In this document: positions 612 to 60,836 of the stretch, one piece after another
Position numbering within the stretch: the first letter of the stretch is position 1
Layout of the letters: each line of letters starts with the position of its first letter
NCBI RefSeq assembly: GCF_040931995.1
Contig: NZ_CP162412.1
Span: 992,001 to 1,056,000 of the forward strand
DNA: 64,000 nt
Reading direction: 5' to 3'
Source: Pelagovum sp. HNIBRBA483
GTDB lineage: Bacteria > Pseudomonadota > Alphaproteobacteria > Rhodobacterales > Rhodobacteraceae
Made by a program: the position numbers and the translations under genes
The notes under the pieces: model-generated
Databases searched by the model: none
Told to the model about the DNA's origin: nothing
Seen by the model: the letters and a program-made list of their open reading frames with translations, nothing else

Positions 612-1946
612 TTGCTCCGAAGCCCCACTCTCATCCCGGATGCCCATGTCAACGAGGCACCGGCACAATCCGAACTCCCCCGTTGGGTCAAATTCGGGTT
701 GGTGCTCTACCTTTTTCTGATGTTCTTACCGCTCCAGCCACATCTGGCGGGGATCAACCTAATCCCGTTCCGGCTGTTCCTTCTCGTAACGATCATTCCC
801 TTCACCCTCATTCGGATACGCTCTGACTCCGGCTTCGACCGGATCGACGCGCTGATGGCCCTTCTGAGTTTCTGGGTGTTTCTGTCCTTCATCGTCAATC
901 ATGGCATGGCGCGGTTTGAATTCGCGGTGATGTCAGCGATTGAATATTACGGCGGTTTTCTGGTTGGCCGCGTGCTGGTCACCTCGCTGTCCGGATTCCG
1001 GTTCTTCCTCAACGCCTTTGTCATCGCACTCGCACTGATGATCCCCTTCGCGGTGATCGAAAACCGCACCGGAACGAACCTTTGGCTCGATTTTTTCATA
1101 AAGTTTTCGACAACAAACATGCCTGGACCTCCCGAAATGCGCTTCGGTGGATTCAGGGTCAATTCGGTCTTTGCCCACCCGATCCATTTCGGCATCGCAG
1201 GTTCAATGTTCCTAGGCTGCTATTTCACGCTCTATCGCTGGGGAGAGGGCCGCGCGGTCCGTGTGCTCGTTGCGTTAGCCGTTGTGTTCTTGGCCCAGTC
1301 GTCGGCGCCCATGCTCTCGGTGGGTGGGCAACTTGGGCTGCTTGCGTGGGGTGTCATGAGCCGCGACCGCTGGAAGCTTCTTCTGGCTTTGTTTGTCGCT
1401 GCTTTCGTGTTCCTCAGCATTGCGTCCGATCGCGGCCCGATCATCATTTTGGTCGAGACGATGACCCTCAACCCCCGTACTGCTTGGTGGCGGATACACA
1501 TCTGGAACTTCGGCATCGAAAACGTCTGGCAAAATCCGATCTTCGGATTGGGGATGCGCGATTGGGTGCGGCCGCACTGGTTGGCCCCCACGGTGGATAA
1601 TTTCTGGCTCTTGATCGCCATGCGGCATGGGCTGCCTGCAGTTGCCTGCCTGATCGGCGCGGTGGCCATCACCATCACCCGCATCATGCGGGCAACCTAC
1701 GCGCAGCCGGATATGGAGCGCGCGCGCTTGGGCTATCTCATCTCGATGCTCGGCTACATCATCGCCTTCGCGACCGTGTTCGCATGGGGGCAAATGGTGG
1801 CGCTCAGCATGGTCTTCCTCGGCGCCGGCGCCTTCCTCTTCGCCCCCACCAATGGCGGCACGCCTGACGAGGAAAGCACTAATATCCAACCACCAACCCC
1901 GCGTGCAATCGCGCCGCGCTATACGCGGTTTCCGGCCAAAAAGTGA
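612..1946 (+). CDS. O-antigen ligase / polysaccharide polymerase-like membrane protein
   Basis: A 444-residue polytopic membrane protein with about ten hydrophobic segments spread from residue 25 to 420. A long hydrophilic loop near residues 290-325 contains the conserved-looking WRIHIWNFGIENVWQNPIFG-type stretch, where Wzy/WaaL family proteins carry arginine and histidine residues. Family members join lipid-linked O-antigen or exopolysaccharide units in the inner membrane. The start used is TTG at 612, because no ATG occurs before the first membrane segment; a later GTG cannot be excluded. It lies 64 bases downstream of the acyltransferase and is convergent with the arylsulfotransferase-like gene. 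Substrate unknown. Confidence 0.75.
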   Translation: MLRSPTLIPDAHVNEAPAQSELPRWVKFGLVLYLFLMFLPLQPHLAGINLIPFRLFLLVTIIPFTLIRIRSDSGFDRIDALMALLSFWVFLSFIVNHGMARFEFAVMSAIEYYGGFLVGRVLVTSLSGFRFFLNAFVIALALMIPFAVIENRTGTNLWLDFFIKFSTTNMPGPPEMRFGGFRVNSVFAHPIHFGIAGSMFLGCYFTLYRWGEGRAVRVLVALAVVFLAQSSAPMLSVGGQLGLLAWGVMSRDRWKLLLALFVAAFVFLSIASDRGPIIILVETMTLNPRTAWWRIHIWNFGIENVWQNPIFGLGMRDWVRPHWLAPTVDNFWLLIAMRHGLPAVACLIGAVAITITRIMRATYAQPDMERARLGYLISMLGYIIAFATVFAWGQMVALSMVFLGAGAFLFAPTNGGTPDEESTNIQPPTPRAIAPRYTRFPAKK

Positions 1947-1959
1947 GCGCTTCACTTTT
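1939..1959. terminator. Possible bidirectional terminator hairpin
   Basis: An 8-bp perfect inverted repeat (AAAAGTGA, 5-base loop, TCACTTTT) overlaps the stop codon of the O-antigen ligase-like gene and lies between two convergent genes. A-run and T-run flanks would serve both strands. The stem is A+T-rich, so it would be weak. Confidence 0.4.
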
Positions 1960-1995
1960 GACTAAGGACTTTCTTCCGCAATTCATGTCGCCGCG

Positions 1996-3363
1996 CTATT
2001 GGCAGGTATCAAACCCAGCAAGATTGTTGCCAAAAAAATTGCGCGGGAACAGGTCTGCATTAGTGATTTCGCCGACGTATTGGTCATTAAACTGATTGAC
2101 ATATTCCCAAACAATCATACCGCTACCATCGACCTCAATAACCCGCCCACCGTCAAATTCGGTGATGATCATGCCGTCATCTGGCAAGAGTTCATGCTGA
2201 CCTCGGATTACCGAAAGCATTTCTTGTCCGGTACTTTCGCCGAAGCGCACTTCGGTCTCCGATGTCGCTGGGTCAACGAGTATGATATTCGTGGAAAAAG
2301 GCGTCGAAAGGTCTGTGCGGCGATTTTTGTACGCTGTAGAAAATGTATTATTGTTGAAAACCGAGATGCGTCCATCTGACCTGAATTCGGGATCATGCTG
2401 CCGTAGCCAGGGGCCCGTTTGATGCCATTTGACAGCATGGGTTTCTCGATCGATGACCATGATGAAGTTGAGCTCACGCATCGAAATCATCAAATCACCA
2501 GCCCTGAACAGCGGAAAAGAGTCGGAAAAGCGAGAACTCAGCTCCGCAATTTTGTTTGCATGGACCGGCTCATCAGGACCGACGCTGCCTGCATCGAAAC
2601 TGCTGCCTGTTGCTGTCAAAATTGGCAGTAAACCGCCTTCCCGCATCAACTCGGGAATGGAAGTTCTCTCAAGAATTTCTCCATCTTCTGAAATCCTCAA
2701 AATGGTATCTTCCTTGATCGTGCCGGTGCTCAAAGTGGCTGAGAAGGGGCGGAACCGATCAGGTTCATGCGAAGGTTCCCAGAGTGTTCGGCCAAGCACC
2801 CAGTACCCGCCTTTTTCGGCGCGCGTGACCGAGTGGTGCGTATATTCATCTACGGCCCAGACGACCTCGCCACATTGAGTCAATTTCACGGTGCCGCAAT
2901 ACTCATAATTGAACACAAGTTCGCCGTGAGGGGTGACGAGTGCTCCATGCGTATCAACGTCCAGCGGAGAACTTACCGCGCAAGGACGGCTTTCCGCATC
3001 TGGGAAATGTTTCAAATAATCCAATGACCAGCGTTGAATGATCGTACCATCGCGCTCGATGAGCCGCGCTTGGTTTTCACCGTCGAAGAACCCCATCATG
3101 AATACGAGGTTATCATCGTCGGTGACGTTCTTGGTTACCCCGTTGCCCTGCCCACGGGAAGGCTGCAAATGATTTCTGACCGAGAACGGAACTTCGTCGA
3201 ACAAGCCGATATTTCCAATATCGACCAATACCGTCCTGAGCAATGGTACCGGTTGTAGGTCTTTGGAAGACGCCACCACACCATAGACAAACGCGCCGCC
3301 GATTGTGAGGAATACTGCGGATAATATAAACAGATATTTTGCGACTCGATCCAGAAACGTCAT
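1996..3363 (-). CDS. Arylsulfotransferase (ASST)-like beta-propeller protein, membrane anchored
   Basis: A 455-residue protein with one N-terminal membrane segment (about residues 8-30), followed by a periplasmic region with repeated propeller-blade features such as ARLIERDGTIIQRWSLDYL, LRISEDGEILERTSIPEL, VIEVDGSGMIVWEYVNQ and the HELLPDDGMIITEF segment. This resembles the arylsulfotransferase/ASST-like family (PF14269 type), which includes sulfate-transferring enzymes and uncharacterised propellers. I cannot assign an acceptor or confirm the catalytic histidine. Base composition is visibly less G+C-rich than the catabolic genes that follow, suggesting separate acquisition together with the polysaccharide genes. 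It is convergent with the O-antigen ligase-like gene. Confidence 0.7.
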   Translation of the reverse strand: MTFLDRVAKYLFILSAVFLTIGGAFVYGVVASSKDLQPVPLLRTVLVDIGNIGLFDEVPFSVRNHLQPSRGQGNGVTKNVTDDDNLVFMMGFFDGENQARLIERDGTIIQRWSLDYLKHFPDAESRPCAVSSPLDVDTHGALVTPHGELVFNYEYCGTVKLTQCGEVVWAVDEYTHHSVTRAEKGGYWVLGRTLWEPSHEPDRFRPFSATLSTGTIKEDTILRISEDGEILERTSIPELMREGGLLPILTATGSSFDAGSVGPDEPVHANKIAELSSRFSDSFPLFRAGDLMISMRELNFIMVIDRETHAVKWHQTGPWLRQHDPEFRSDGRISVFNNNTFSTAYKNRRTDLSTPFSTNIILVDPATSETEVRFGESTGQEMLSVIRGQHELLPDDGMIITEFDGGRVIEVDGSGMIVWEYVNQFNDQYVGEITNADLFPRNFFGNNLAGFDTCQ

Positions 3364-3476
3364 GAACTCTAAACACTACAGTCAAAAATTTAAATTAAAG
3401 GTGGTCCCTCGATAATTGAGGCGATGATGGCGAAAATGAGTTCAAAAAGATATGTCTTTCGCAATTACGCTGCTTT

Positions 3477-4766
3477 TTAGGGAGACTTGCCCCCCGCCAC
3501 CGCCCGCGCTGCTTTGGCGATTGCCGCCTCCGTAACCTGTAAATCTGCCTCCGTGAGCGCGAGGCTGGGGTAGGTCTTACCGGCGGATTTGAAAATTCCG
3601 TTGGCCTTCAGCGCCGCATTCCAGCGGCCAGCCGCCGCCGCGTCGCCCTCTTTTACCGCGCGGTAATCTCTTGGTGCGTCCTTGGTGAACACGACTTCAA
3701 ACAATGTCGCATCGCCGACGATCTGATACGGCACGCCGGTCGCACTCAGATGGGCGTCGATCATCCCCATGATCCGCTCCCCCGTCGCGCGGAGGGACGA
3801 ATACTGCCCCTCACGCCGTAGGATTTCGAGGCTCTTCAGCCCCGCCGCCGCCGCCACCGGATTGCCTGAAAGCGTGCCCAGCTGCATCAGCCACGCATCC
3901 GCCCCCACTTCTGCTTTGTCGAAATGCGCCATGATATCCGCGCGTCCCACCGTCGCCGCCAGCGGGAAGCCGCCACCGATCACCTTGCCCAGTGTGCACA
4001 GGTCGGGCGTCACACCATAGAGCGTCTGCGCACCTCCGTAATCAAACCGGAAGCCCGTCACCACCTCGTCGAAGATCAGCACAATGCCATAGCGGTCACA
4101 TTCATCCCGTAAGCATTGGAGAAAGCCAGACTCCGGCGGGATGATCCGCTGCAAGGGCTCGACGATCAGCGCCGCCACGTCATGCCCGTGTTCGGCCAAT
4201 AGCGAGCGGATGAATTCTGGGTCGTTGAACGGCGCGATCAGCATTTCTGCCGCGACGCTCTGCGGAATCCCCGCGCTATCTGGCACCGCTTGCGGGAAGT
4301 TCACCCGCTTGCTTGGCGCAAGGCTCATCTGCGCCTCGGCCGACATGCCGTGATAACCGCCTTCAAACTTTACGATCTTGTCCCGCCCCGTAAACGCCCG
4401 CGCCAACCGGATCGCATACATATCGGCCTCGCCGCCGGAGGAGACATAGCGCAGCCGCTCGGCACAGGGCACCGCGTCACAAATCGCCTCGGCCAGTTCG
4501 ATGCCCTGCGGGTTGTTGGCAAAGAAGGTCTGCCCATTGGGCAGCTGTTGCAGCACCGCCTCCAGCACCTCAGGGTGCCCATGCCCCAGCAGCATCGGGC
4601 CGGAGCCGATCAGATAATCAACATACTCCGTCCCATCCGCATCCCACACCCGCGCAGCCTCGCCACGGGTGATAACGGTCGTCGGATCAAAATTTCCGAA
4701 GCCCCCCGCAGGGAGCACGGCGCGCGCGCGGTCAATCCATTCGGCTTGGGTGGTCAGGCGGTTCAT
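3477..4766 (-). CDS. Class III PLP aminotransferase, glutamate-1-semialdehyde aminomutase-like
   Basis: A fold-type I, class III aminotransferase of 429 residues. It has the N-terminal substrate region (GTEYVDYLIGSGPMLLGHGHP), the cofactor region (YVSSGGEADMYAIRLARAFTG), the FDEVVTGFR segment and the PLP-binding lysine in TLGKVIGGGFPLAA. The start chosen is ATG at 4766, 4 bases after the upstream gene's stop; longer frames into that gene lack family similarity. It resembles HemL, but no haem gene is nearby and it closes a catabolic operon (enolase-superfamily enzyme, DMGDH-like flavoprotein). It more likely transaminates a semialdehyde or keto acid from that pathway. Confidence 0.85.
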   Translation of the reverse strand: MNRLTTQAEWIDRARAVLPAGGFGNFDPTTVITRGEAARVWDADGTEYVDYLIGSGPMLLGHGHPEVLEAVLQQLPNGQTFFANNPQGIELAEAICDAVPCAERLRYVSSGGEADMYAIRLARAFTGRDKIVKFEGGYHGMSAEAQMSLAPSKRVNFPQAVPDSAGIPQSVAAEMLIAPFNDPEFIRSLLAEHGHDVAALIVEPLQRIIPPESGFLQCLRDECDRYGIVLIFDEVVTGFRFDYGGAQTLYGVTPDLCTLGKVIGGGFPLAATVGRADIMAHFDKAEVGADAWLMQLGTLSGNPVAAAAGLKSLEILRREGQYSSLRATGERIMGMIDAHLSATGVPYQIVGDATLFEVVFTKDAPRDYRAVKEGDAAAAGRWNAALKANGIFKSAGKTYPSLALTEADLQVTEAAIAKAARAVAGGKSP

Positions 4767-5902: not shown

Positions 5903-8359
5903 TCATTCCGCCGCCTCCACGACCGCATCCGCGCGTGGCTTCAGGCTTTGCGGGTCATAGGCCGGTTCGCCCAGCACCCGTGCGCTGCGCGGCTGGCCGT
6001 GGATCACCACCTCCAACGCCGTGCCAGCTTTGGCGGCATGCGGCTTGAGATAGGCAAAGGCGAGGATCTTGCCGACCGTGTGCCCATAGGCAACCGACGC
6101 GGTAGAGCCGACGACATTGCCCTCTAACAGCACCGCCTCACCGCCATGCCCGTCGCGCACCCCGTCGGGCGCAATCTCCAGATAGGCGCAGACCCAAGGC
6201 AAATCGGTGTTCAGAGTTTTGTCGCGGCCAAGATAGTCCTTATCCTCCCGCGCAAAGCGCAGCACATCCGCTTCCGCCAGCGTGACCTCATTGGTCAACT
6301 CGCCCGCCCCTTTGAAGCCCTTTTCCATCCGCATCACGTTCATCGCAAAGCTGCCGTAATCGGCAATGCCATGCGCTTCTCCGGCCGCCCAAAGCGCTTG
6401 ATAGACGTCCAGCATCGCATCAGCTGGCATGTGCAGTTCCCAGCCCAGCTCGCCCGCATAGGACATACGGAAGGCCCAGATCGTATGCCCCGCGATGGCG
6501 ATCTCCTGCGCCGAAAGCCAGCGAAACGCCGCATTATCCAGCCGCGCATCGGTGCATGCCGCGAGCACATCTCGCGTCCGCGGCCCGTTCAGAGACAGAG
6601 CGCCCCACGCCTCCGACAGCGCGGTCACGGTCACATCCTCGCCCGCGCGCTGCGCTGCCAGATGATCCAACAAGCGCTGCTCGAAGAAAGCCGCGCAAAC
6701 AAGGTAATAGCGATCCTCCGCCATCCGCACAATGGTGGTTTCCAACTCGATCCGCCCACGGCGGTTCAGCATATGAGTCAACGTGATGGAGCCGTTTTTC
6801 TGTGGCATCCGGTTCGCTGTCAGCCGGTCAAGCAGGGCATAGGCATCCGGTCCCTCGACCATCACCTTGGTGAACGCGGTCACATCCATGATGCCCACCC
6901 GCTCGCGCACCGCCTTCACCTCAGCGCCGACCATCCGGTCTGTCTCCGTGCGGCGGAAGCTGTAGTGATCCTCCTGCGCCACCCCGTCGCGGGCAAACCA
7001 GCGCGGCCGCTCGAAGCCGTAAACCTCCTCGTAAACCGCGCCTTTCGCCTTAAGTAGCTCATACAGCGGCGATGGTTTGATCGGGCGGCCTGCCAGCCGG
7101 TTGAAATGCGGGAAGGGGATCTCATGGCGAAGGCAGTAATCCTCCTGCGCTTTCACCACCTGCCACTCTTTCGTTGCATAGCTGCCAAAGCGGCGCGGGT
7201 CATAATCCCGCATCGAAATATCCGCCGCCCCATGCACCATCCAGCGGGCCAATTCGCGCGTTAGTCCCGGCCCCCAGCCAATGCCAATTTGCGTGCCGCA
7301 GCAACACCAGTAATTCCGCACGCCCGGGGCAGGGCCGATCAGCGGGTTGCCATCCGGCGGATGGCTGATCGCGCCATGCACATCGCGGGTGATTCCCAGT
7401 TCGGCGAAGATCGGCATCCGGTTCAGGCTTTCCTCCAGCCACGGCATCACACGGTCATAATCCGCGTCAAACAGCTCGTTCTCGGCCTCCCACGGGCAAT
7501 GGTCGATCCACACGCTGTTCGGGTTGGTCTTTTCGTAAATGCCGATCAGCCCCTTTTTCTGCTCCATGCGGATGTAGCCGGAAACCTTCCGGTCATCGCG
7601 GATCACCGGCAGTTCCTTCTCCAGATCGCGGAACTCCGGCACTTCGTCGGTGACGAAGTAGTGATGCGTCATCGAGGTCATCGGCAGTTGCAGCCCAGAC
7701 CATTCCCCCATCTGCCGCGCATAGGTGCCGCCTGCGTTGACGACATGCTCACAGCGGATCGTGCCTTTTTCCGTCTCCACGATCCATTCACCATTGTCGG
7801 CTTGGGTGATGTGCGTCGCGCGGCAGCGGCGGAAAATCCGCACCCCCTTCGCCCGCGCTCCTGCGGCCATCGCCATAGTGACGTTCGTCGGGTCCACATG
7901 GCCATCATCCGGCGTGTGCAACGCCCCCAAAACACCGTCGAGATTGTAGAACGGATGCAACTCCGCCACCTGTTCCGGCCCCACCAATTCGATATTGAAT
8001 CCAAGGCTCCGCCCGACCGAGAGCGTGTGCCGCAGCCAGTCCATCTCGTCCTCGGTATAGGCCAGCCGGAACGACCCGCAGCCATGCCAAGTGACCGCCT
8101 GTCCCGTCTCCGCCTCCAACTTGCCGGAATACAACCCGATATTGTAATCGACGCATTTTCCGAGGCTGAAGCTCGATGTTGAATGCGTGATCTGCCCCGC
8201 CGCATGCCATGTGCTGCCACTGGTCAGTTCCGCTTTTTCAAGGAGCACCGTGTCCGCGCCCCAGCCCTCGTGGCCGAGGTGATAGGCCAACCCGACCCCC
8301 ATCACCCCGCCTCCCACGATGACGACACGGGCCTGAGTAGGGAAGTTGGAATCCTGCAT
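5903..8359 (-). CDS. Dimethylglycine/sarcosine dehydrogenase-like FAD-GcvT fusion
   Basis: An 818-residue two-part protein. Residues 1-400 are a DAO-type FAD oxidoreductase with the dinucleotide fold VVIVGGGVMGVGLAYHLG and the STWHAAGQ segment, whose histidine matches the covalent FAD site of dimethylglycine dehydrogenase. Residues 430-810 are the FAO_M bridge plus GcvT and its C-terminal barrel, which accept the oxidised methyl on tetrahydrofolate. Such enzymes remove N-methyl groups from secondary or tertiary amino acids and make methylene-THF. It heads the minus-strand operon, divergent from the RpiR regulator. Substrate could be dimethylglycine, sarcosine or N-methylproline; the neighbouring Rieske gene argues for a betaine pathway. 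Confidence 0.85.
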   Translation of the reverse strand: MQDSNFPTQARVVIVGGGVMGVGLAYHLGHEGWGADTVLLEKAELTSGSTWHAAGQITHSTSSFSLGKCVDYNIGLYSGKLEAETGQAVTWHGCGSFRLAYTEDEMDWLRHTLSVGRSLGFNIELVGPEQVAELHPFYNLDGVLGALHTPDDGHVDPTNVTMAMAAGARAKGVRIFRRCRATHITQADNGEWIVETEKGTIRCEHVVNAGGTYARQMGEWSGLQLPMTSMTHHYFVTDEVPEFRDLEKELPVIRDDRKVSGYIRMEQKKGLIGIYEKTNPNSVWIDHCPWEAENELFDADYDRVMPWLEESLNRMPIFAELGITRDVHGAISHPPDGNPLIGPAPGVRNYWCCCGTQIGIGWGPGLTRELARWMVHGAADISMRDYDPRRFGSYATKEWQVVKAQEDYCLRHEIPFPHFNRLAGRPIKPSPLYELLKAKGAVYEEVYGFERPRWFARDGVAQEDHYSFRRTETDRMVGAEVKAVRERVGIMDVTAFTKVMVEGPDAYALLDRLTANRMPQKNGSITLTHMLNRRGRIELETTIVRMAEDRYYLVCAAFFEQRLLDHLAAQRAGEDVTVTALSEAWGALSLNGPRTRDVLAACTDARLDNAAFRWLSAQEIAIAGHTIWAFRMSYAGELGWELHMPADAMLDVYQALWAAGEAHGIADYGSFAMNVMRMEKGFKGAGELTNEVTLAEADVLRFAREDKDYLGRDKTLNTDLPWVCAYLEIAPDGVRDGHGGEAVLLEGNVVGSTASVAYGHTVGKILAFAYLKPHAAKAGTALEVVIHGQPRSARVLGEPAYDPQSLKPRADAVVEAAE

Positions 8360-8420
8360 TTGTCTGTCCTGTGAATGATCTTGCTGCGACTCGCATTTTC
8401 GATGGACAGGCTAATGGGAC

Positions 8421-8460
8421 GTTTGTATCATCGTCAATCATGAATCAAACAAATGTATCA
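8421..8460 (+). promoter_or_regulatory. Divergent control region with repeated TGTATCA sites
   Basis: The gap between the DMGDH-like gene and the RpiR gene is A+T-rich. The 7-mer TGTATCA occurs at 8424-8430 and 8454-8460, with ATGATTGA/ATCATGAATC motifs between. The second copy overlaps the first codons of the regulator. This is a plausible autoregulatory RpiR operator covering both divergent promoters; it is inferred, not demonstrated. Confidence 0.4.
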
Positions 8461-9324
8461 CAAACTGTTCTCGACCGACTCGCTGGCGAGTGGGACAGCC
8501 TCACCCCCGAGGCGCAAAAGGCCGCGCGCTATGTGCTGGAAAATCCGGCAGATGTCGGCGTCTCCACCGTGCGCGAGATCGCGGAAGCGGCCAACGTCAA
8601 GCCAAACACCTTTGTCCGTATGGCGCGGCAGGTGGGGTTCGATGGCTACGAGGATTTCCGCGCCCCGTTCCGCGAGGCCATCCGGCAGGGCGGCGTCAGC
8701 TTTCCTGACCGCGCCCGCTGGCTACAAGGGATCAGCCGCTCCGGCGAGCTGGGCGGGCTTTATGCCGATATGATCGGCAGCGCCGTCCGCAATATCGAGG
8801 AAACCTTCGCCACCATCTCGGCAGATGATCTCAAAGCAGCGGCCGAGGCGATCTGGTCCTCGCGGCAGGTGTTCACCCTCGGTGTGGGGGTGAACAACGC
8901 CAATGCGCGCAACTTCACCTATCTCGCCTCCACCGGCATGACCCAGTTCCACGCCATCCCCCGCCCCGGGTCCACGGCGGTCGATGATCTCGCATGGGCC
9001 GACGGGCGCGATGTGCTCATCGCCATGACCTGCAAGCCCTACCGCACCGAGGTGATCGAAGCGGTGCAAATCGCCCGCGAGCAGGGCGTCACCGTCATCG
9101 GCATCTCCGACAGCCCCGCCAGCCCGATCATTCTGGCCGCGCAACATGGCTTCACAGTTGCCGTCGATACACCGCAGTTTTTCCCGTCTTCCGTGTCCAC
9201 GATTGCGCTTCTCGAAACGCTCCTGAGCTTCGTGATCTCGGTTGCCAGCGATGAAATCGTCGAACGGGTCGAAAAATTCCATCTCCGTCGCCACCAGTTG
9301 GGCATTTATCAAGAGGATCGCTGA
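8440..9324 (+). CDS. RpiR/MurR family transcriptional regulator (HTH + SIS)
   Basis: A 294-residue regulator. The N-terminal HTH_6 domain (residues 1-75) shows the typical VSTVREIAEAANVKPNTFVRMARQ helix-turn-helix. Residues about 110-260 form a SIS domain (VFTLGVGVNNANARNFTYL, VLIAMTCKPYRTEVIEAVQ, GVTVIGISDSPASPI), which usually senses a small ligand. ATG 8440 is preferred over ATG 8371 because the HTH domain starts directly after it and the earlier start would use up the divergent promoter region. Its stop overlaps the Rieske gene start (TGATG). It likely controls both arms of the betaine-type cluster in response to a pathway intermediate. Confidence 0.88.
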   Translation: MNQTNVSQTVLDRLAGEWDSLTPEAQKAARYVLENPADVGVSTVREIAEAANVKPNTFVRMARQVGFDGYEDFRAPFREAIRQGGVSFPDRARWLQGISRSGELGGLYADMIGSAVRNIEETFATISADDLKAAAEAIWSSRQVFTLGVGVNNANARNFTYLASTGMTQFHAIPRPGSTAVDDLAWADGRDVLIAMTCKPYRTEVIEAVQIAREQGVTVIGISDSPASPIILAAQHGFTVAVDTPQFFPSSVSTIALLETLLSFVISVASDEIVERVEKFHLRRHQLGIYQEDR

Positions 9325-10409
9325 TGACCGCGCCGCTCACCCATTCACTCGATGCCCGCTACTACACTGATCCCCTGATCTTCGAGGCCGAGCGCAAGGG
9401 CCTTCTCGCCCGCACATGGCAATTCGCCGGTCACGCCAGCCAGCTCGAAAATCCGGGCGATTACTTCGCGTTTGAGATGGCCGGCGAAAGCCTCTTCTGC
9501 ATCAAGGGCCGCGATGGCGAGATCCGCACCTTCTACAACGTCTGCCAACACCGCGCCCACCAGCTTGTCTCCGGTGCCGGTTCCACCCGCGTTGTCGTCT
9601 GCCCCTATCACGCATGGACCTATGAGCTGACAGGCCAACTGCGCGCGGGGCCAAATCTTAAGGCGGTTGAGGGCTTCGACAAAAGCAAAGTCTGCCTGAC
9701 GGCGGTTCGTACCGAAGTTTTCCTCGGTTTCATCTTCGTCAACCTCGATCCCGACGCCGCCCCGATGGATGACTGGTTCCCCAATGTCCGTAATGAACTG
9801 TCAGAATGGGTGCCGAACTGGGACAAGCTCAAACCCATCGAATGGGTAGAAATTCCCGAAAACTGCAATTGGAAGGTTTCGGTCGAAAACTACTCCGAAT
9901 GCTACCACTGCTCGATCAATCACCCGACCTTCGCCACCGGCGTGATCAAGCCTGAAACCTATGACATCCAGCCCCAAGGCTACTGCCTGCGCCACACGAC
10001 CGAGTGCCAGAGCCTTGAAAATATGACCTATGAGATCGACCGCTCCAACGCCCATGCCGAGGAGTATTCGAGCTGGTTCCTCTGGCCAATGTTCAGCTTT
10101 CAGGTCTACCCCGGCAATGTGCTCAACACCTATCACTGGCGCGCCGTGGATGCCGACCATGTGATCGTCTGGCGCGGCTGGTACACCGAAGAGGGCTGGG
10201 ACAGCGAAACCATCCGCCGCCTCGCCGTGCAGGACCGCGCCACCACAGTCGAGGAAGACATCCACCTCGTTGAATCCGTCCAGCGCGGCCTCAAATCACG
10301 CGGCTATGTCCCGGGGCCACTGGTGGTTGATCCCCGCTGCGGCGTGAACTCCGAACACTCCGTTATGACCTTGCAAAAATGGATGCGCGAAGGTGTCTCC
10401 CCGCTCTAG
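9324..10409 (+). CDS. Rieske non-haem iron oxygenase, large subunit (betaine demethylase type)
   Basis: A 361-residue oxygenase. The Rieske [2Fe-2S] site is visible as CQHRAH and CPYHAW (C-x-H, 17 residues, C-x2-H, about residues 74-97). The mononuclear iron site is ENYSECYHCSINHP (about 188-202), with a downstream Asp expected near residue 310. The motif and length match the family of glycine betaine monooxygenase GbcA, stachydrine demethylase and carnitine oxygenase, which hydroxylate an N-methyl group and release formaldehyde. It is translationally coupled to RpiR. No reductase partner (FAD/NADH, ferredoxin) is present in the window, so electrons must come from an unlinked or shared reductase. 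Substrate assignment is inference. Confidence 0.85.
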   Translation: MTAPLTHSLDARYYTDPLIFEAERKGLLARTWQFAGHASQLENPGDYFAFEMAGESLFCIKGRDGEIRTFYNVCQHRAHQLVSGAGSTRVVVCPYHAWTYELTGQLRAGPNLKAVEGFDKSKVCLTAVRTEVFLGFIFVNLDPDAAPMDDWFPNVRNELSEWVPNWDKLKPIEWVEIPENCNWKVSVENYSECYHCSINHPTFATGVIKPETYDIQPQGYCLRHTTECQSLENMTYEIDRSNAHAEEYSSWFLWPMFSFQVYPGNVLNTYHWRAVDADHVIVWRGWYTEEGWDSETIRRLAVQDRATTVEEDIHLVESVQRGLKSRGYVPGPLVVDPRCGVNSEHSVMTLQKWMREGVSPL

Positions 10410-10420
10410 CGGCGCAGGGA

Positions 10421-10861
10421 TTATCCGGCCAGAACGCTCACAAAAAACACCAGACGGTTGCCCTCGGCAAAAACGTCGACAATGTACATGTTTTGATACC
10501 GCGCATCGAGCATGAGCCGCTCAAGATTTGGGACAGTGCCGTCGCACCATGTTCTTAAGTCCGCATTGGAGATCATCGACCGGCGGTTCAGGTCTGTAAA
10601 ATATCCGTCCCATTCATCAAGGGGACCGGCCGCATTGAACCGATGCATATTCGCGCGATCTTGCTGGATCAGTCCAAGAGCATTGCCAAGCGCCGCGCCA
10701 CGCGAATTCACGCGGTCCTGTGGATCGACGGCAAAGACATAGGTAAAGAGATGCCCCTTCGCACCTACCGGAACGCCTTCCCAATTCTTACAGGCCGGAG
10801 CCGCACTCGCCACAGTCGCGGCTATCGATAGAAAAATCGAGATTACAGCAAGTCGCAACAT
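10421..10861 (-). CDS. Secreted protein of unknown function
   Basis: A 146-residue protein that I do not recognise. It has a clear Sec signal peptide (MLRLAVISIFLSIAATVASA, cleavage after ASA) and two cysteines (in PACKNW and RTWCDG) that could form a disulfide in the periplasm. It is convergent with the Rieske gene and is the first gene of a stretch with lower G+C. A frame-length ORF with a good signal peptide supports it being real. Confidence 0.6.
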   Translation of the reverse strand: MLRLAVISIFLSIAATVASAAPACKNWEGVPVGAKGHLFTYVFAVDPQDRVNSRGAALGNALGLIQQDRANMHRFNAAGPLDEWDGYFTDLNRRSMISNADLRTWCDGTVPNLERLMLDARYQNMYIVDVFAEGNRLVFFVSVLAG

Positions 10862-11074
10862 GGCTGATCCCTTCTCCGTGTTCAGGTTCTCTTCGCGGCG
10901 TTATGCATAACGCCCACTGTGCTAGGGATGATAATTTACCGAGCCATCTCTGCCAGATTTCCTATACTGATGCGCTGATTTTTGTTTTGCTCCCTGTTGT
11001 ATCATTACGGCGTGATCGCCGTGAAAATTAGGCCCAGGCACTTGCGCTTCGCCATTCAATTGGGGGTGTCCTTG

Positions 11075-11625
11075 ATGAAGATTTTCTTGTCCCTACTCTT
11101 CATGTTTTTAGCCACCGTTACGCGCGCAGAAACGTTCATTACCTCGGATCTCGACGGCGATGGTCACGCGGAAAGTTTTGAACTCATAGGGGCTGACATC
11201 GATGCGCTCGATGATGGTGCTGATCTCCTGATCCGCTCTGGCGCGACCACCATACGCGCGCGCGACATTGCTTGGGTCGGTGGGCTTTACGGCCAGCTTC
11301 CTATGCTCGTACGCGCGCCGAATGGATCCATCCTGCTGACGTCGATGAACGCGTCCGTTGGGCGTGATCGTTGGGAACTTACCCTCACCATAGCCTATCG
11401 CTCGGGTGTGCATATCGCATAGCTGGCTACACCTACCATTGGCGCGATACCTTGAACCCTGATGCGTTTGGCTCCTGCAATCTCAATTTGTTAACGGGGC
11501 GCGGCACTCTCACGACGCCAAATCAGAAGAACAAACCCGTTCGCACAGTGCTGTCAGCGCCTCGGGTCGAGGAGTGGTCCGCCTATGCGCCTCTACCCGC
11601 CGCTTGTGATCCTGACCTGTCGTAG
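11075..11625 (+). pseudogene. Secreted Ca-binding-like protein gene, broken by a 2-bp frameshift
   Basis: ATG 11075 begins a signal peptide (MKIFLSLLFMFLATVTRA) followed by a DLDGDGHAE motif typical of FG-GAP/EF-hand-like calcium loops. The first frame stops at 11422. From about 11410 the -1 frame continues with protein-like sequence (AYRIAGYTYHW, then NLLTGRG) to a stop at 11625. Removing one GT from GTGTG (11406-11410) would read YRSGAYRIAGYTYHW without interruption. So this is either a recent pseudogene or a sequencing error in one gene of about 182 codons. No known function. Confidence 0.6.
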
Positions 11626-11720
11626 CGCCATTTTTCTGCTTTGAAGTCGCCGCGCAAGGAAAGCATCGCCAAAGCTGAAGAGGGTGATGGTAACGCAGCG
11701 CCCGATGCGCGGTCCGCCGA

Positions 11721-12236
11721 TCAGTTTCGCGGGGCGTCGATGCGCACCATCGCTTCATTTCTGCGCATGAACGGGAGTGTGAAAGGCCCATTATAGGTTG
11801 CCCTTATGACCTCTCCTCTTACGGAATGGCCATCTGCGTTCAATGCGTTTAGCAATTCGGTCCGAGCGCGTGCAAAGTTGCTCTCGGTAGCGCTGCCGCG
11901 ATAGCTCCGCACAGCATAATAGCCGCCCTCCACGGAAATAATTTCGACCCGTGGATTCGTCGGCTGCGGCGCCGTTTCCGACGTGAATTCCTTTGGTAGG
12001 AAAAACTGCATGAACCCTGTATTTTCGGCAGTCGACTGCAAGACAGGTACCGTCATGGCAAACTTTTCGGATTGCGCGACAGGGACCGTCATACTGACCT
12101 TTTCGGAACTGGTGTTGGCACCAGAGATATATTGGGAGAGTAACCGGAAAGAGCCGTTCTGACTCCCTTTAGACCTTACTTGCGCAGCGAGGCGGTCTTC
12201 GTAGAGTCGGATCTCATAACCCTCCGCTTTGCTCAC
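11721..12236 (-). CDS. SOUL family haem-binding protein
   Basis: A 171-residue SOUL/HBP-type protein, recognised by YEIRLYEDRLAAQV at the N terminus, the KVSMTVPV and KFAMTVPV strands, FFLPKEF, and the C-terminal RRNEAMVRI strand. Homologues bind haem or tetrapyrroles. Most bacterial SOUL proteins have an N-terminal signal or membrane anchor; here an in-frame stop lies only five codons before the GTG start, and the domain begins almost at once. The protein is therefore predicted cytosolic, or its leader has been lost. No clear Shine-Dalgarno precedes GTG 12236. It lies 55 bases downstream of the proteorhodopsin gene on the same strand, so co-transcription is likely. Confidence 0.8.
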   Translation of the reverse strand: MSKAEGYEIRLYEDRLAAQVRSKGSQNGSFRLLSQYISGANTSSEKVSMTVPVAQSEKFAMTVPVLQSTAENTGFMQFFLPKEFTSETAPQPTNPRVEIISVEGGYYAVRSYRGSATESNFARARTELLNALNADGHSVRGEVIRATYNGPFTLPFMRRNEAMVRIDAPRN

Positions 12237-12291
12237 AACGTCAAAAGGGCACTAGCGCTAAGCCAGCGCCCTTGAGATTCATGTTAGTCTG

Positions 12292-12996
12292 TCAGTGGGT
12301 ATCCTTTTCACTGTCTTTCGTCGCGAGATACCAAATGATAAGACCGAAGAGAATCTTATTCACGAAATCCGCTAAGTTGTAGACCGCATTCAGCGCGCCT
12401 TCATCGACCCCGCCCATGAAGTATCCAAGGACATATCCAATTGGATAAATGGCCCAACCTACCAATACAATCCAACGCATCGCATTAAATGCAGATTTGA
12501 CAGATGTCTCGGCGGATGCCGCTGCGCGACCAGCTTCTCCTCCGTAGATTTCCCAGATTATGATCGCCCAACCGACCATACCGATCCAGAAACCCAAGCC
12601 TGCCGACATAATGCCCGCCTCGCCAAGGTAACCAAATATCAGCATCACCAAGGTGCCGACAAGGAGCCTCAAGAAGGAGCCGAAGCCGACACTTGCGCCT
12701 ACAGCCCGTAAGATGATGTAGAATTCGATCATCAATAGCGGCACCGTGATCAGCCAGTCTATGTAGCGATAAACGATTGGGGTAGTTTGCTCGACGACCC
12801 AGTAGTCTCTCATGTAGTCATAATGAACTCCGGCGATCAGCGTCACCAAGCCTGCAACAAGCAGTGACAACCTCCAATGAGATTTTACCCGAAGTCCTTC
12901 GTAGAGAAAAAAGACAGTCGATGCGATCATTGCGACCGACACCAGCCAGAATGTGACCCCTACGAGATCACTGCTTTGTAAGAACATTTTTTCCAT
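12292..12996 (-). CDS. Proteorhodopsin, light-driven proton pump (green type)
   Basis: A 234-residue, seven-helix microbial rhodopsin. The helix C motif RYIDWLITVPLLMIEFY gives the proton acceptor Asp80, Thr84 and proton donor Glu91 (the DTE set of proton pumps). His58 in GVHYDYM matches the His that partners the acceptor in proteorhodopsins. Lys214 in LADFVNKILFG is the retinal Schiff-base lysine. Leu88, at the spectral tuning position, predicts green absorption. A strong AAGGGAGG lies 6-7 bases before ATG 12996. The short N terminus may lack a cleaved signal peptide. No retinal synthesis gene (blh, crt) lies within the window. G+C is clearly below that of flanking core genes, consistent with transfer. 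Confidence 0.95.
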   Translation of the reverse strand: MEKMFLQSSDLVGVTFWLVSVAMIASTVFFLYEGLRVKSHWRLSLLVAGLVTLIAGVHYDYMRDYWVVEQTTPIVYRYIDWLITVPLLMIEFYIILRAVGASVGFGSFLRLLVGTLVMLIFGYLGEAGIMSAGLGFWIGMVGWAIIIWEIYGGEAGRAAASAETSVKSAFNAMRWIVLVGWAIYPIGYVLGYFMGGVDEGALNAVYNLADFVNKILFGLIIWYLATKDSEKDTH

Positions 12997-13087
12997 TTGC
13001 CCCTCCCTTGTTGAGCTACTTCAACAGTAGCGCGATTATTGGGAGCGACATATTGACACGCGCATACAAATTAGTCCCAAAAGGATA

Positions 13088-13147
13088 CCTCTAGAGTGTG
13101 CGCTGCGGAAAAAAAACTGGCTAATTTATGAAAATACACCCTAGAGG
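13088..13147. repeat. Inverted repeat upstream of proteorhodopsin
   Basis: CCTCTAGAGTGT (13088-13099) and ACACCCTAGAGG (13136-13147) are inverted with 11 of 12 positions matching and 36 bases between. The pair lies about 90 bases before the proteorhodopsin start and flanks the start of a possible small divergent ORF. It could be a regulator site or the remnant of a mobile element end. Confidence 0.4.
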
Positions 13148-13298
13148 CGAAAAAGAAACCCCAAGGAAAAAGTCGAACGTCAGCTTCTATAGCGATCCAA
13201 GACTGTGGATCGGTTGGGTTTTTGCGATTTCGTGGTCAATGCTGATAGTCCAACCACTTATAATGCTTTCAGCATCCCTGAACTTCTCCGGCACCTGA
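13128..13298 (+). CDS. Possible 56-residue single-span membrane protein
   Basis: ATG 13128 opens a frame of 56 codons ending at TGA 13296. The product has a basic, hydrophilic N-terminal part (residues 1-25) and one predicted membrane helix, with WIGWVFAISWSMLIVQPLIM at residues 27-46. That layout looks protein-like and the gene is divergent from proteorhodopsin. Against it: no clear Shine-Dalgarno and no recognised family. Function unknown. Confidence 0.35.
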   Translation: MKIHPRGEKETPRKKSNVSFYSDPRLWIGWVFAISWSMLIVQPLIMLSASLNFSGT

Positions 13299-13665
13299 CA
13301 ATTACTCACTGACTGGACGGCGACTGAAATTCAGACGTGTGGGCTGTGATGGCGCAGCTCTGTTCATGGTTGAGGGGTACGGTCGGTTTGAACCGATGAG
13401 TTAAGATGCGAACCTCAACCAGAACATGACGCGAAAGTAATTCTGTTCCGCGACATGACGTACCGCTTCTCCACGTAATGGGAAATCGGGGGCACACTGC
13501 TGCGAGTCTCGTGGCTTCTCTGGGTGTCAATGCCACTTGGGAGTGCCGTCGGCGAAGTTTAGGTTTCTAACGTGATGTTCCCAAGGAAACCTACAGGGAA
13601 AACCTACGGGGAAAAGCCCCCTCAAGAGCTCTCAAAAGTCTTCAAAATAAGGATATTTGTACAAG
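13299..13665. other. Non-coding stretch beside tRNA-Glu
   Basis: No convincing gene is seen here. A 76-codon minus-strand frame (13306-13536) lacks a ribosome site and family features. Near 13590 there is a locally repetitive segment (AACCTACAGGGAAAACCTACGGGGAAAA written as two near-copies of AAACCTAC-GGGAAAA). The stretch forms the boundary between the low-G+C island and tRNA-Glu. Confidence 0.5.
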
Positions 13666-13740
13666 TGGCAGCCCGTAGGGGAATCGAACCCCTCTTTCCA
13701 GGTTGAAAACCTGGCGTCCTAACCGATAGACGAACGGGCC
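13666..13740 (-). tRNA. tRNA-Glu (anticodon UUC)
   Basis: A 75-base cloverleaf including an encoded CCA. The acceptor stem GGCCCGT pairs with ACGGGCT (one G-U), the anticodon arm CCAGG-TTTTCAA-CCTGG gives anticodon TTC, and the T arm contains GGTTCGATTCC. The discriminator base is G, as usual for tRNA-Glu. It lies upstream of the low-G+C proteorhodopsin region, whose island would sit on the 3' side of the tRNA, the usual side for integration. I found no repeat of the tRNA 3' end at the far side of the island. Confidence 0.96.
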
Positions 13741-13823
13741 ACTTGGTGAGGCGGCTTTTAGGCAAAGCAGGGGGAGGGCGCAAGAGGGATTTTTCGAAAA
13801 AACATCTCCGGCAACGAAAAAAA

Positions 13824-15578
13824 TCACCCCCGTGAAATTGCCTCTGCCGCATCTTCCAAACGCAGTTGAACCGACTGCCTCCCTTGCCAGACATTGATGT
13901 CCAAACGTCCCGCCAGATGGAACCGCGCGCCGCCGTGATTGAGCAGCCTTGGCCCCAGTGGGCCATCCATCGCGCCAAAGCAGATCGCGTCCAGCCGCGC
14001 GCCCATCCCGTCGCCAAAGCTGATCTTGAGGTGGTTTGCCCCAACCTGTTTGGCAAAGCTGATCTGCACATCGGGGAAGGCAAAGCGCGGGGCAGGGGCG
14101 CCCGCGCCAAATGGGCCTGCCTCCTCCAGTTGCGTCACCAGATCGACCTGCGCCGCACCTGGCATCAACAGCCCGTCGAGCCGCAAATCTGCTGGCCCCA
14201 TCTGCCCCGCGCCTTGCCGCTCCAGCAGTTCTCCGAGCCGCGCCATCGCCGCTTCGATCTTGTCGGGTGCCACCGTTAGCCCCGCCGCCATCTTGTGGCC
14301 GCCGCCTTTGATCAGCAAGCCTTCACGCGCCACCTGATGGATCGCCGCCCCCAGATCAACGCCAGAGATCGAGCGCCCCGATCCCTTGCCCTCGCCATCC
14401 GCAAGGCCGATCACGACCGCTGGCCGGTTCGTCGCTTCCTTCAGGCGGGCGGCAACGATCCCAACAACGCCCGCATGCCATCCATCTCCGGCGGCCCAGA
14501 CAAGCGGCCCCTCCAGCCCCCGCGCCTCTGCCTGTTCAAGCGCACTGTCACGGACCATCGTTTCGATCTCGCGCCGCTCTGTGTTCAGAGCATCAAGCCG
14601 CTCAGCCAGAGCCGCCGCTTCATGCGGGTCGGTGGTGGAAAGCAGCCAGGCGCCGAGATCCGATTTGCCAATCCGCCCACCGGCATTCACCCGTGGCCCC
14701 AAGAGAAAGCCCAGATGATATGCGTTCGGCGTTGCATCCATTCGCGCCACATCCGCCAGCGCCACCAAGCCGGGGCGTTGCCGTCGCGCCAAGACCTTCA
14801 GCCCTTGCCGGACAAAAGCGCGGTTCAACCCCGTCAGCGGTGCCACATCCGCAACCGTCGCCAATGCCACGAGGTCAAGAAGCGCCATCAGGTCAGGCCC
14901 GCTCTTGCCCGCTTCTCGCAGGCGGCGGTTCACCTCGACCAGCAACAGGAACACCACGCCCGCCGCGCAAAGATGCGCCAAGTCACCGCTTTCGTCCTGC
15001 CGGTTCGGGTTCACCACCGCGCACGCATCGGGCAGTGTCTCACCGCCCAAATGGTGATCGAGGATCACCACATCGGCACCCTCGGCGGCCGCAATCGCTT
15101 CATGGCTCAGCGTGCCGCAATCCACGCAAATGATCAGGTCATGCGCGCTGGCAAGGCTCTGCATTGCAGGCACGTTCGGTCCGTAGCCTTCGTCGATCCG
15201 GTCGGGGATATAGAGCGTCGCCTGCTGGCCCATATCGCGCAGCCAGCTGATCAGCAGCGCAGAGGATGCGCCCCCATCCACGTCATAATCGCCGAAAATC
15301 GCAATCCTTTGCCGCCCTTCCAGCGCCGCGATGAAGCGCGCGGCCGCTTTCTCCATATCCCGCAGGCTGCGGGGGTCAGGCATCAGCTCACGCAGCTTCG
15401 GGTCAAGAAATGCCGCCGAGTCAGTAGGGGTCACCCCGCGCCGCACCAATGTCCGGCAGACAGGCGCGAGCAGGCCCGTCAACTGTTCCATCGCCTCGGT
15501 GTGGCGCTCTTCCTCGACGGATGGTCCGATCCAGCGTCGGCCCGTCAGCGATTGCGTCACCCCGAGGAAAGCAGTCAT
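13824..15578 (-). CDS. recJ: Single-stranded-DNA-specific exonuclease RecJ
   Basis: A 584-residue DHH-superfamily 5'-3' exonuclease of recombination and mismatch repair. The phosphoesterase motifs are visible: IFGDYDVDGG (about residue 95), ICVDCGT, VILDHHLGG (about 173) and the DHHA1 region GWHAGVVGIVAARL and GKGSGRSI...GGHKMAAG (residues 370-430). A C-terminal OB-like domain follows. The length is normal for the family. Its ATG overlaps the glpX stop (TGATG), so the two are translationally coupled, as in other Rhodobacteraceae. Confidence 0.95.
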   Translation of the reverse strand: MTAFLGVTQSLTGRRWIGPSVEEERHTEAMEQLTGLLAPVCRTLVRRGVTPTDSAAFLDPKLRELMPDPRSLRDMEKAAARFIAALEGRQRIAIFGDYDVDGGASSALLISWLRDMGQQATLYIPDRIDEGYGPNVPAMQSLASAHDLIICVDCGTLSHEAIAAAEGADVVILDHHLGGETLPDACAVVNPNRQDESGDLAHLCAAGVVFLLLVEVNRRLREAGKSGPDLMALLDLVALATVADVAPLTGLNRAFVRQGLKVLARRQRPGLVALADVARMDATPNAYHLGFLLGPRVNAGGRIGKSDLGAWLLSTTDPHEAAALAERLDALNTERREIETMVRDSALEQAEARGLEGPLVWAAGDGWHAGVVGIVAARLKEATNRPAVVIGLADGEGKGSGRSISGVDLGAAIHQVAREGLLIKGGGHKMAAGLTVAPDKIEAAMARLGELLERQGAGQMGPADLRLDGLLMPGAAQVDLVTQLEEAGPFGAGAPAPRFAFPDVQISFAKQVGANHLKISFGDGMGARLDAICFGAMDGPLGPRLLNHGGARFHLAGRLDINVWQGRQSVQLRLEDAAEAISRG

Positions 15579-16546
15579 CAGCGGCCGGTCGGGTGGCGGT
15601 AGCTCATGCGGCGCACCGATCCGGTCTTCGACCGCATCAGGATCGTCTCGGCGGTCAATGCGCCCGGTTCGCGCTTGATGCCTGGCAGGAGCGAGCCGTC
15701 GGTCACGCCCGTGGCGGCAAAGATGACGTCGCCGGAAACCATATCATCGCGGGTATAAACGCGGTCGAGGTTGGTCACGCCTGCGTTGGCAGCGCGGCCG
15801 CGCTCGTCATCATTGCGGAATAGCAGCTTACCAAAAATCTGCCCGCCCATGCATTTCAGCGCCGCGGCGGCCAGCACACCTTCTGGTGCGCCGCCAGAGC
15901 CCATATACATGTCGATGCCGGTTTTGTCCGGCTCGGCGCAATGCATCACGCCTGCAACGTCCCCGTCAGTGATCAGCCGGATCGCCGCGCCGGTGGAACG
16001 CAGCTCCGCGATCAGATCTTCATGGCGCGGGCGTTCCAGCACGCAAACGGTGATGTCCTCGGTCGAACATCCTTTCGCCGCCGCCAGCGCCGAAACGCGC
16101 TCCGACGGGCTCATCGTTAAAGTGACGACACCCGGTTTGAAGCCGGGGCCGATGGCGAGCTTGTCCATATACACATCCGGTGCATGCAGCATCGAGCCAC
16201 GCGGCCCCATCGCGATAACGGCAAGCGCGTTGGGCATGTCCTTGGCGGTCAGGGTCGTGCCTTCCAGCGGGTCAAGCGCGATGTCCACCGCAGGGCCGGA
16301 GCCAGTGCCCACTTCCTCACCGATATAGAGCATCGGCGCTTCGTCGCGTTCGCCTTCACCGATCACCACCACACCGGCAATATCGAGGCTGTTGAGCTGG
16401 GTGCGCATCGCGTCCACCGCTGCCTGATCCGCTGCTTTTTCGTCACCCCGTCCGATCAACCGCGCCGATGCAAGCGCCGCCGCCTCCGAAACACGGGCGA
16501 GGCCCAGCGATAGCATTCTGTCATGAAATTCGGCGGCTTTGGACAT
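15578..16546 (-). CDS. glpX: Fructose-1,6-bisphosphatase class II
   Basis: A 322-residue GlpX-type phosphatase of gluconeogenesis, acting in the cytosol. Diagnostic segments are the N-terminal AAALASARLIGRGDEKAADQAAV, GVVVIGEGERDEAPMLYIGE, the metal site VDIALDPLEGTTL and the IGSGGAPEGVLAAAALKCMGG-like segment. It lies 81 bases downstream of hom and is coupled to recJ. The neighbourhood hom-glpX-recJ is a conserved core block in this family of bacteria. Confidence 0.95.
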   Translation of the reverse strand: MSKAAEFHDRMLSLGLARVSEAAALASARLIGRGDEKAADQAAVDAMRTQLNSLDIAGVVVIGEGERDEAPMLYIGEEVGTGSGPAVDIALDPLEGTTLTAKDMPNALAVIAMGPRGSMLHAPDVYMDKLAIGPGFKPGVVTLTMSPSERVSALAAAKGCSTEDITVCVLERPRHEDLIAELRSTGAAIRLITDGDVAGVMHCAEPDKTGIDMYMGSGGAPEGVLAAAALKCMGGQIFGKLLFRNDDERGRAANAGVTNLDRVYTRDDMVSGDVIFAATGVTDGSLLPGIKREPGALTAETILMRSKTGSVRRMSYRHPTGR

Positions 16547-59162: not shown

Positions 59163-60134
59163 TTAACCCATCGTTATCACGACTTTGCCCGTCGACTTGC
59201 GCTCCCGCAGCAGCTCAAGCCCCTCCAACGCCCGCTCAAATGGCAACTGGTGACTGATATGAGGGCAGATTTTTCCTGCTTCATAGAGCGACATCAGATC
59301 GGTGAGGCTCTCGCGCAGAACATCCGGCGCGAATTTCATATAGCCGCCCCAGTAGAAACCGATCAGGTCGATATTCTTGACGAGCAGATGGTTCGCCGCG
59401 ACCGGCGGCACCGTGCCTGATGCAAACCCGATGCTCAGAATCCGCGCTTCCCGTCGTGCCGATTTCATCGCCAGCGTGAATAACTCGCCCCCCACCGGAT
59501 CATAGACGACATCCGCGCCACCAGCGCCTTTTACCTCCGCAATCAGGCGCTCCAGCCCCAAATCGGAATCAAGAACTTCATCAGCTCCGGCGGCTTGCGC
59601 TGTCGCGCATTTCTCCGCACCGCGCGCAACGGCAGTAACGTGCGCACCCATTGCCTTTCCGATCTCCACCGCAGTCAGGCCAACGCCTCCCGCTGCACCG
59701 AGAACCAACAGGCGTTCACCAGCCCGGAGCCGTGCCCGCCGCGTCAGGGCAAGGTGCGATGTGCCGTAGGCGATTTGGAATCCCGCTGCATGTTCATCCG
59801 GCATGCCGTCGGGGATCGGCAGGCATGCCGCTGCCTCGAACACACCTTCTTCCGCAAGCCCGCCGGCCCCGCAAAACACAGCAACCCGCTGCCCGACTGA
59901 AATTTCGCCGCACCCCTCAGTGATCTCGATCACGTCACCCGCAACCTCCAGTCCCGGCGTAAAAGGGGTAGGGGGTGTATCCTGATAGCGCCCTTCAACC
60001 ATCAGGAGGTCAGCAAAGTTCAAACCGCAAGCGCGGATACGCAGCCGAATTTCGCCCTTGGCGAGTGTTTCGCGTTTAAGCTCGCAAAGCGCCGGAAGTT
60101 GACCGTAGGCTGTCACTTTGAAGGATCTTAGCAT
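59163..60134 (-). CDS. NADPH:quinone oxidoreductase (MDR superfamily)
   Basis: A 323-residue zinc-independent MDR enzyme, with an N-terminal GroES-like domain (residues 1-125) and the nucleotide fold LLVLGAAGGVGLTAVEIGKAMG (about 145-166). The C-terminal VPPVAANHLLVKNIDLIGFYWGGYM segment is typical of the QOR/Nmr subfamily. It probably reduces quinones or enoyl substrates with NADPH. A possible operator hairpin lies upstream at 60161-60181. Confidence 0.88.
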   Translation of the reverse strand: MLRSFKVTAYGQLPALCELKRETLAKGEIRLRIRACGLNFADLLMVEGRYQDTPPTPFTPGLEVAGDVIEITEGCGEISVGQRVAVFCGAGGLAEEGVFEAAACLPIPDGMPDEHAAGFQIAYGTSHLALTRRARLRAGERLLVLGAAGGVGLTAVEIGKAMGAHVTAVARGAEKCATAQAAGADEVLDSDLGLERLIAEVKGAGGADVVYDPVGGELFTLAMKSARREARILSIGFASGTVPPVAANHLLVKNIDLIGFYWGGYMKFAPDVLRESLTDLMSLYEAGKICPHISHQLPFERALEGLELLRERKSTGKVVITMG

Positions 60135-60142
60135 ATCGCTCT

Positions 60143-60181
60143 CTTTTTTAGATAGGCGGTTTAAAGAAGAATAGTCTTTAA
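60143..60181. promoter_or_regulatory. Upstream region of quinone oxidoreductase: repeated 15-mer and inverted repeat
   Basis: CTTTTTTAGATAGGC (60143-60157) is repeated exactly at 60808-60822 before the hisN-like gene. Next to it, TTAAAGA and TCTTTAA (60161-60167 and 60175-60181) form a perfect inverted repeat with a 7-base spacer, a typical dimeric regulator site layout. The spacing suggests control of the gene ending at 59163. Confidence 0.4.
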
Positions 60182-60769: not shown

Positions 60770-60836
60770 AAGGACGGTTGACCCCTGATGCCGTCCCGCG
60801 CTACCGCCTTTTTTAGATAGGCAGGAGCGGGGCGGT

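Follow-up and report, generated by a model that had tools for sequence, protein, structure and literature searches.

The pump gene and its genomic setting

The window, which is the whole 64,000-nucleotide stretch of DNA analysed here, contains a proteorhodopsin gene in a low-GC interval beside a tRNA gene. The features at the locus are listed below; the DNA comparison is with G001, a MAG titled Marivivens sp., whose pump locus is L011.

12292..12996, minus strand: proteorhodopsin gene (234 amino acids; ATG start; DTE triad; Leu tuning residue; retinal-binding Lys214)
12997..13030, minus strand: leader with GGGAGGGG ribosome-binding stretch, common to L011; the G001 DNA match ends at 13030
12245..12273, minus strand: terminator-like hairpin 3' of the pump gene (RNA fold -22.5 kcal/mol, z -4.27)
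11721..12236, minus strand: SOUL heme-binding family protein (Pfam PF04832, 134.1 bits), adjoining the pump gene downstream
10413..13662, no strand: low-GC variable slot (GC 52.3%); the G001 DNA match stops at 10412 and resumes at 13663
13666..13740, minus strand: tRNA-Glu (TTC) at the slot edge (ARAGORN; Rfam tRNA 59.7 bits)

The sequence-only reading had described a complete proton-pump rhodopsin, and this description is borne out: the 234-residue frame is whole, and Pfam recognises a single family in it, Bac_rhodopsin (PF01036, residues 12-227), scoring 155.6 bits (cut-off 24.6), far above chance. All residues named in that reading (H58, D80, T84, L88, E91 and K214) carry the numbers it gave, and we take their aligned counterparts in green proteorhodopsin (GPR) to be H75, D97, T101, L105, E108 and K231. 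The DTE triad (D80, T84, E91), the His of the acceptor pair (H58) and the retinal Lys (K214) by which proteorhodopsins are recognised are therefore all found. An AlphaFold2 model built from 24 aligned proteins of the window and the fetched loci (alignment A1, which leaves out L028, L032 and L036, among others) has a mean pLDDT of 88.7. Foldseek places PDB 9r22 (PsPR, entitled a light-driven proton pump) at the top with 70% identity, and VIA-align ranks 4kly, a blue proteorhodopsin mutant, first (Z 33.1) in a near tie with 9r22 (Z 32.2); the PF01036 match and the model's likeness to proteorhodopsin structures together identify the seven-helix rhodopsin domain. In every tested feature the protein reads as an ordinary proteorhodopsin. 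Green absorption is predicted from Leu88 by its alignment with L105 of GPR, so the earlier forecast of a green pump holds as a prediction.

PsPR resembles the window protein in fold, is 70-71% identical to it and lacks an N-terminal extension over the aligned region, but differs in a five-residue insertion before the DTE helix. GPR (PDB 7b03, 8cnk) shares the functional residues and the Leu tuning at 54% identity; it has a signal sequence, as described in part of PMC11322631, whereas inspection of the alignment by eye reveals no signal-peptide-like N-terminal extension in the window protein.

The slot is bounded by a Rieske oxygenase gene and the tRNA-Glu, and contains two open reading frames (ORFs) without a recognised family, the SOUL protein gene and the pump gene. 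GC content falls from 61.2% in the window to 52.3% in the slot and 49.5% in the pump gene. At the slot position G001 has 765 other bases (query window 8371-16546), and its match resumes at 13663, three bases past the 3' end of the tRNA-Glu; its own pump gene lies roughly 46 kb off on that contig, among different neighbours. In five of the seven more distant family genomes (G003, G004, G013, G017, G327) the match also sets in no more than a few bases from 13663; in the other two (G002, G016) it sets in inside recJ. The pump gene thus occupies a variable slot next to a tRNA. The L011 gene is followed by a counterpart hairpin (-26.8 kcal/mol, z -4.84), and because leader and hairpin are common to both Marivivens genes, the shared unit is in essence a single gene together with its leader and end; the window's hairpin is missing from the consensus-scan list. 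A promoter scan returned one site, where shuffled sequences average 1.6, and among 19 upstream regions compared by eye a common block occurs in the two Marivivens only; we claim no promoter.

Signs of a vehicle were sought in several places. No integrase was recognised among the slot proteins scanned with Pfam, although the two family-less ORFs remain without assignment, and a repeat search at the slot gave short repeats only. A search of 50,697 phage records gave no match; four stretches of viral contigs matched a pattern and none encodes a relative, while eight plasmid records hold distant rhodopsins only (26.0-37.5% identity). For the slot ORF at 10421-10861, a relative with 74% identity lies on another contig. 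A SOUL homologue beside the pump was not found in L011-L036 by neighbour protein clusters, and the sequence comparison gives no sign that the SOUL protein has a role in pump function. Its start apparently lacks the first 11 profile positions, and the gene was possibly shortened by arrival of the pump gene.

Other features of the window were observed in passing. Beside the slot, positions 5903-10409 encode what look by eye like an 818-residue dehydrogenase-like protein and an RpiR-type regulator, and also the Rieske oxygenase, which NCBIfam matches best to GbcA (154.7 bits; cut-off 670); this is likely a glycine-betaine/dimethylglycine breakdown cluster. Further low-GC patches lie at 1801-3705, over a 455-residue ORF (1996-3363), and at 59801-60805.

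Retinal and carotenoid genes in the genome

The window's genome comprises 3,039,227 bases in two contigs and is 99.08% complete; the two-contig assembly suggests an isolate. The sequence-only reading had found no retinal genes near the pump, and this is confirmed and extended: the blh profile (BCD/PF15461) has no match anywhere in the genome up to E 10, so the retinal-gene gap is genome-wide and reaches beyond the window. A profile for RPE65-type oxygenases likewise has no match in the whole genome up to E 10. Lack of both blh and an RPE65/diox1-type oxygenase is one mark of a retinal-auxotroph rhodopsin bacterium, and the genome shows it at 99.08% completeness; the other mark, use of external retinal by the cell, would be expected.

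The proposal that blh and crtEIBY be sought genome-wide was taken up for blh, crtI and crtB, with one profile for each absent enzyme and with crtE and crtY outside the search; neither blh, nor crtI over its cut-off, nor a convincing crtB was found. The phytoene-desaturase model has no match at E 1e-30. It yields 36 sub-cut-off matches, each covering about 27-47 of 504 positions at the N-terminal end; the eight inspected by eye (L003-L010) resemble other FAD- or NAD-binding oxidoreductases and were rejected as crtI candidates. A single SQS_PSY match lies above the Pfam cut-off at 85.2 bits. As a phytoene synthase it was set aside, since the protein scores best to HpnD (50.8 bits against an NCBIfam cut-off of 278.6) and matches a cyanobacterial CrtB at no better than E 0.066; it appears to be a weak HpnD-like protein and no convincing CrtB.

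These results narrow the earlier suggestion that retinal must be made elsewhere or be taken up. Synthesis by the known enzymes within this genome loses its footing, because blh, RPE65 and crtI over the cut-off were not found, and uptake or an unknown enzyme is left. The absence of any retinal synthesis gene had also been named as grounds for giving up the pump. As far as the profiles reach, that absence is what we found, yet the pump reading stands, since retinal supplied from outside can charge proteoopsin, as described in part of PMC11322631.

A control within the family indicates that the blh profile works there. A rhodopsin-family match occurs in 13 of 394 family genomes, and blh was detected in 6 of the 12 rhodopsin-positive ones that remain when the window's genome is excluded, so the profile is able to find blh in this family. 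The blh-negative genomes are G001, G012, G368, G137, G379 and G380. The retinal lysine is kept in G137, G379 and G380. As a separate observation, the rhodopsin-family proteins L047 (G368) and L048 (G012), from genomes without blh, have Arg and Leu at the retinal-lysine site and, without that lysine, probably do not bind retinal.

Relatives, tree and selection

Scanning one genome per species gave 26 loci encoding relatives (L011-L036). The nearest is L011 at 94% identity, in G001, which is 89% complete and the only other genome of the window's genus compared; it has the pump gene and no blh. Fifteen loci (L012-L026, 74-82%) belong by title to Gammaproteobacteria, Pseudomonadales or Lysobacterales, L027 (69%) to an uncultured alphaproteobacterium and L028 (74%) to a Pelagibacteraceae MAG. 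Some of the L012-L026 loci have, next to the pump or not far from it, genes that by eye are TonB-dependent-receptor-like (e.g., L021, 10814-12799) and whose products might import carotenoids. Together with the window's genome, the genomes of L011-L028 form a clade set of 19, of which the other 18 are MAGs with a completeness figure known for G001 (89%) alone.

Each of the 19 genomes has one rhodopsin match, and all 19 proteins keep the His, the DTE triad, the retinal Lys and the Leu tuning residue. Leu had been called unusual at this site in the sequence-only reading; that remark falls, and green tuning by Leu appears normal for the clade. Profile searches found neither blh nor crtI over the cut-off in 18 of the 19. 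The exception is G402, the one genome with either gene, which carries both together on one contig, separate from its pump gene. Longer crtI-like matches occur in six of the 19 (G397, G399, G400, G407, G408 and G409; 107-148 bits against a cut-off of 238.1), which may have a carotenoid-type enzyme. Of the 27 genomes in the wider blh search three are positive, and of the 27 in the wider crtI search four exceed the cut-off. In the more distant L029 and L030 (60%) the protein carries a signal-peptide-like extension, and blh and crtI share a contig with the pump; L031-L035 (50-53%, Gln type) come from genomes in which blh and crtI over the cut-off were not found; L036, whose gene is truncated at a contig end, comes from a genome with crtI and without blh.

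In the tree, the Marivivens pair are sisters (100/99) within a clade of 18 rows (99/99), which L027 and 15 gammaproteobacterial sequences complete; the window protein is nested in a mainly gammaproteobacterial clade. The tree leaves out L001 and L037 (the window and L011 genes again), L028 (frame broken near its start), L036 (cut by a contig end) and L046, L047 and L048 (not proteorhodopsins). Mapped on the tree, the blh label needs four changes against a shuffled mean of 7.3, with one of 500 shuffles as low, a contrast inflated by near-copies.

Substitution patterns bear on both the maintenance and the history of the gene. The Marivivens pump genes differ at pS 0.761 and pN 0.037 over 232 codons (the L011 gene ends in N, and comparisons cover 231-232 codons), and the blh-less pair L021/L022 has dN 0.004 and dS 0.539; low pN against high pS, and low dN against high dS, argue that the pump protein is under selection and strongly conserved. 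Between the same two genomes the core neighbours RpiR, Rieske, recJ and glpX have pS of 0.32-0.58, in counts that omit hom (stop in the target) and in which SOUL and ORF 10982 are unmatched in the stretches compared. Because the pump pS lies above that of its neighbours, lateral arrival or exchange of the Marivivens pump gene would fit better than plain descent.

Source of the retinal and alternative explanations

The explanation that we consider probable is that a lone gene for a green proton pump was acquired and that its product receives retinal from outside the cell. The analysis shows an intact gene with its residues, retinal genes missing here and across the clade, a nested tree position and differing genomic sites; pumping, retinal uptake, the donor and the direction of transfer we infer. 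Marivivens would have received the gene from the mainly gammaproteobacterial pump clade that was found without a retinal operon. The opsin would be made empty and then loaded with retinal that carotenoid-producing neighbours release; light would isomerise the retinal on K214, the Schiff-base proton would pass to D80, paired with H58, and be replaced via E91. These roles of D80, H58, E91 and K214 are established for proteorhodopsins. The near-universal retinal-gene gap among the closest relatives suggests that cells of the 18 clade members without retinal genes probably take the pigment from neighbours. Published support comes from part of PMC11322631, where retinal-free proteoopsin is stable, decanoate serves as a placeholder and a scavenging route is modelled.

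Retinal auxotrophy has already been described from other organisms. Proteobacteria with rhodopsin and without blh and diox1 are stated to exist (PMC7734400, data not shown there), and retinal auxotrophy is proposed in the part consulted of PMC12422013 for most Luna-1 actinobacteria. These and Saccharibacteria (PMC9296517), as far as the excerpts extend, resemble the present case in having a proton-pump rhodopsin without blh, with outside retinal proposed, but they belong to other phyla than the window's and have other rhodopsin families; most Luna-1 genomes retain crtB and crtY (same part of PMC12422013), whereas the genome here yielded neither crtI over the cut-off nor a convincing crtB. The roseobacter RCA cluster likewise has a laterally acquired green proteorhodopsin according to part of PMC10675870, but there blh and crt genes share an operon with the pump, whereas the window pump stands alone. 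In the literature searched we found no paper combining Marivivens and proteorhodopsin, and none on the clade's missing blh among the titles and abstract openings of the matches listed.

Two other rhodopsin classes were considered and rejected. Flotillin-associated rhodopsins (FArhodopsins) have DTT, DTL or DNI in place of DTE, according to part of PMC10308929, and are accompanied by a neighbouring flotillin gene and by a second, standard proteorhodopsin elsewhere in the genome; the motif here is DTE, the genome has one rhodopsin only, and no flotillin was found among six neighbouring proteins scanned with Pfam. A xanthorhodopsin-type carotenoid antenna would be blocked by the Phe that stands at the putative antenna column in all 19 clade members; the column, presumably the antenna glycine position, holds Gly in all five xanthorhodopsin-like family proteins (L041-L045), and glycine opens the antenna site as described in part of PMC13043013.

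Strong conservation of the pump calls for some source of retinal, and the cell could make its own through an unrecognised enzyme or pathway. This has been proposed for Aurantimicrobium minutum, which lacks blh and diox1, still contains retinal and pumps unsupplemented (PMC7734400, in part). A. minutum retains its carotenoid pathway according to the same source, however, while here the lack of crtI over the cut-off and the weak HpnD-like synthase mean that the usual retinal precursor seems to be missing too; we regard internal synthesis as unlikely. Incompleteness offers another way out, since the genome is 99.08% and not 100% complete and one profile only served for each enzyme, so that a retinal operon might be unassembled or too divergent. 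The assembly has just two contigs, blh is also absent from G001 and from 16 of the 17 other clade genomes, and the profile succeeds in 6 of 12 family genomes, which together make a missed operon highly improbable.

Different in kind are readings in which the protein does no light-driven work. Actinorhodopsin scrambles lipids independently of retinal, and such a role has been proposed for opsins of cells without the last retinal gene (PMC12805836, in part), so the window protein might be a phospholipid scramblase or a membrane-structuring protein. The same source reports no sequence requirement for scrambling, yet all 19 clade proteins retain the lysine and the residues of the proton relay, and only light-driven work would need them; a retinal-free role is accordingly very unlikely in our estimation. 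The low GC, the variable slot beside a tRNA and the other site in G001 would also suit a recent passenger, intact and idle in the window's species. Against an idle passenger stand the very low pN beside high pS in the Marivivens pair and the intact frame, leader and terminator-like hairpin, and we give that reading scarcely any weight.

Beyond the probable single-gene acquisition and outside charging in this genome, the DTE-Leu, extension-less clade could be a one-gene light-energy module without a chromophore pathway, moving between Gammaproteobacteria, SAR11-like Alphaproteobacteria and roseobacters and kept by selection on retinal leaked by neighbours; we hold this wider reading tentatively, at a little short of an even chance. 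If the single-gene explanation is true, importing one gene yields light energy with neighbours supplying the pigment, phototrophy of such cells depends on the community, and counts of rhodopsin genes overestimate self-sufficient phototrophs; if the module reading is true as well, retinal is a shared community resource, much like a vitamin. That retinal genes are missing clade-wide, in several lineages, deserves follow-up more than any other finding here, and the clade provides a natural comparison set, with 18 members without blh and crtI over the cut-off and one with both.

The N-terminal extension provides a further lead. By eye, a signal-peptide-like extension is present in L029, L030, L038 and L040, with blh in three of the four genomes, and is absent from the window protein, L011-L027, L031-L035 and L039, where blh almost never occurs. 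Exceptions are L038 (G379), with the extension and no blh; G402, with blh and a protein (L019) that has no extension; and L036, with the extension and no blh in a small, cut assembly. That loss of the extension goes with loss of blh is a lead only, drawn by eye from related rows. In GPR the N-terminal extension influences oligomer size, as described in part of PMC11322631.
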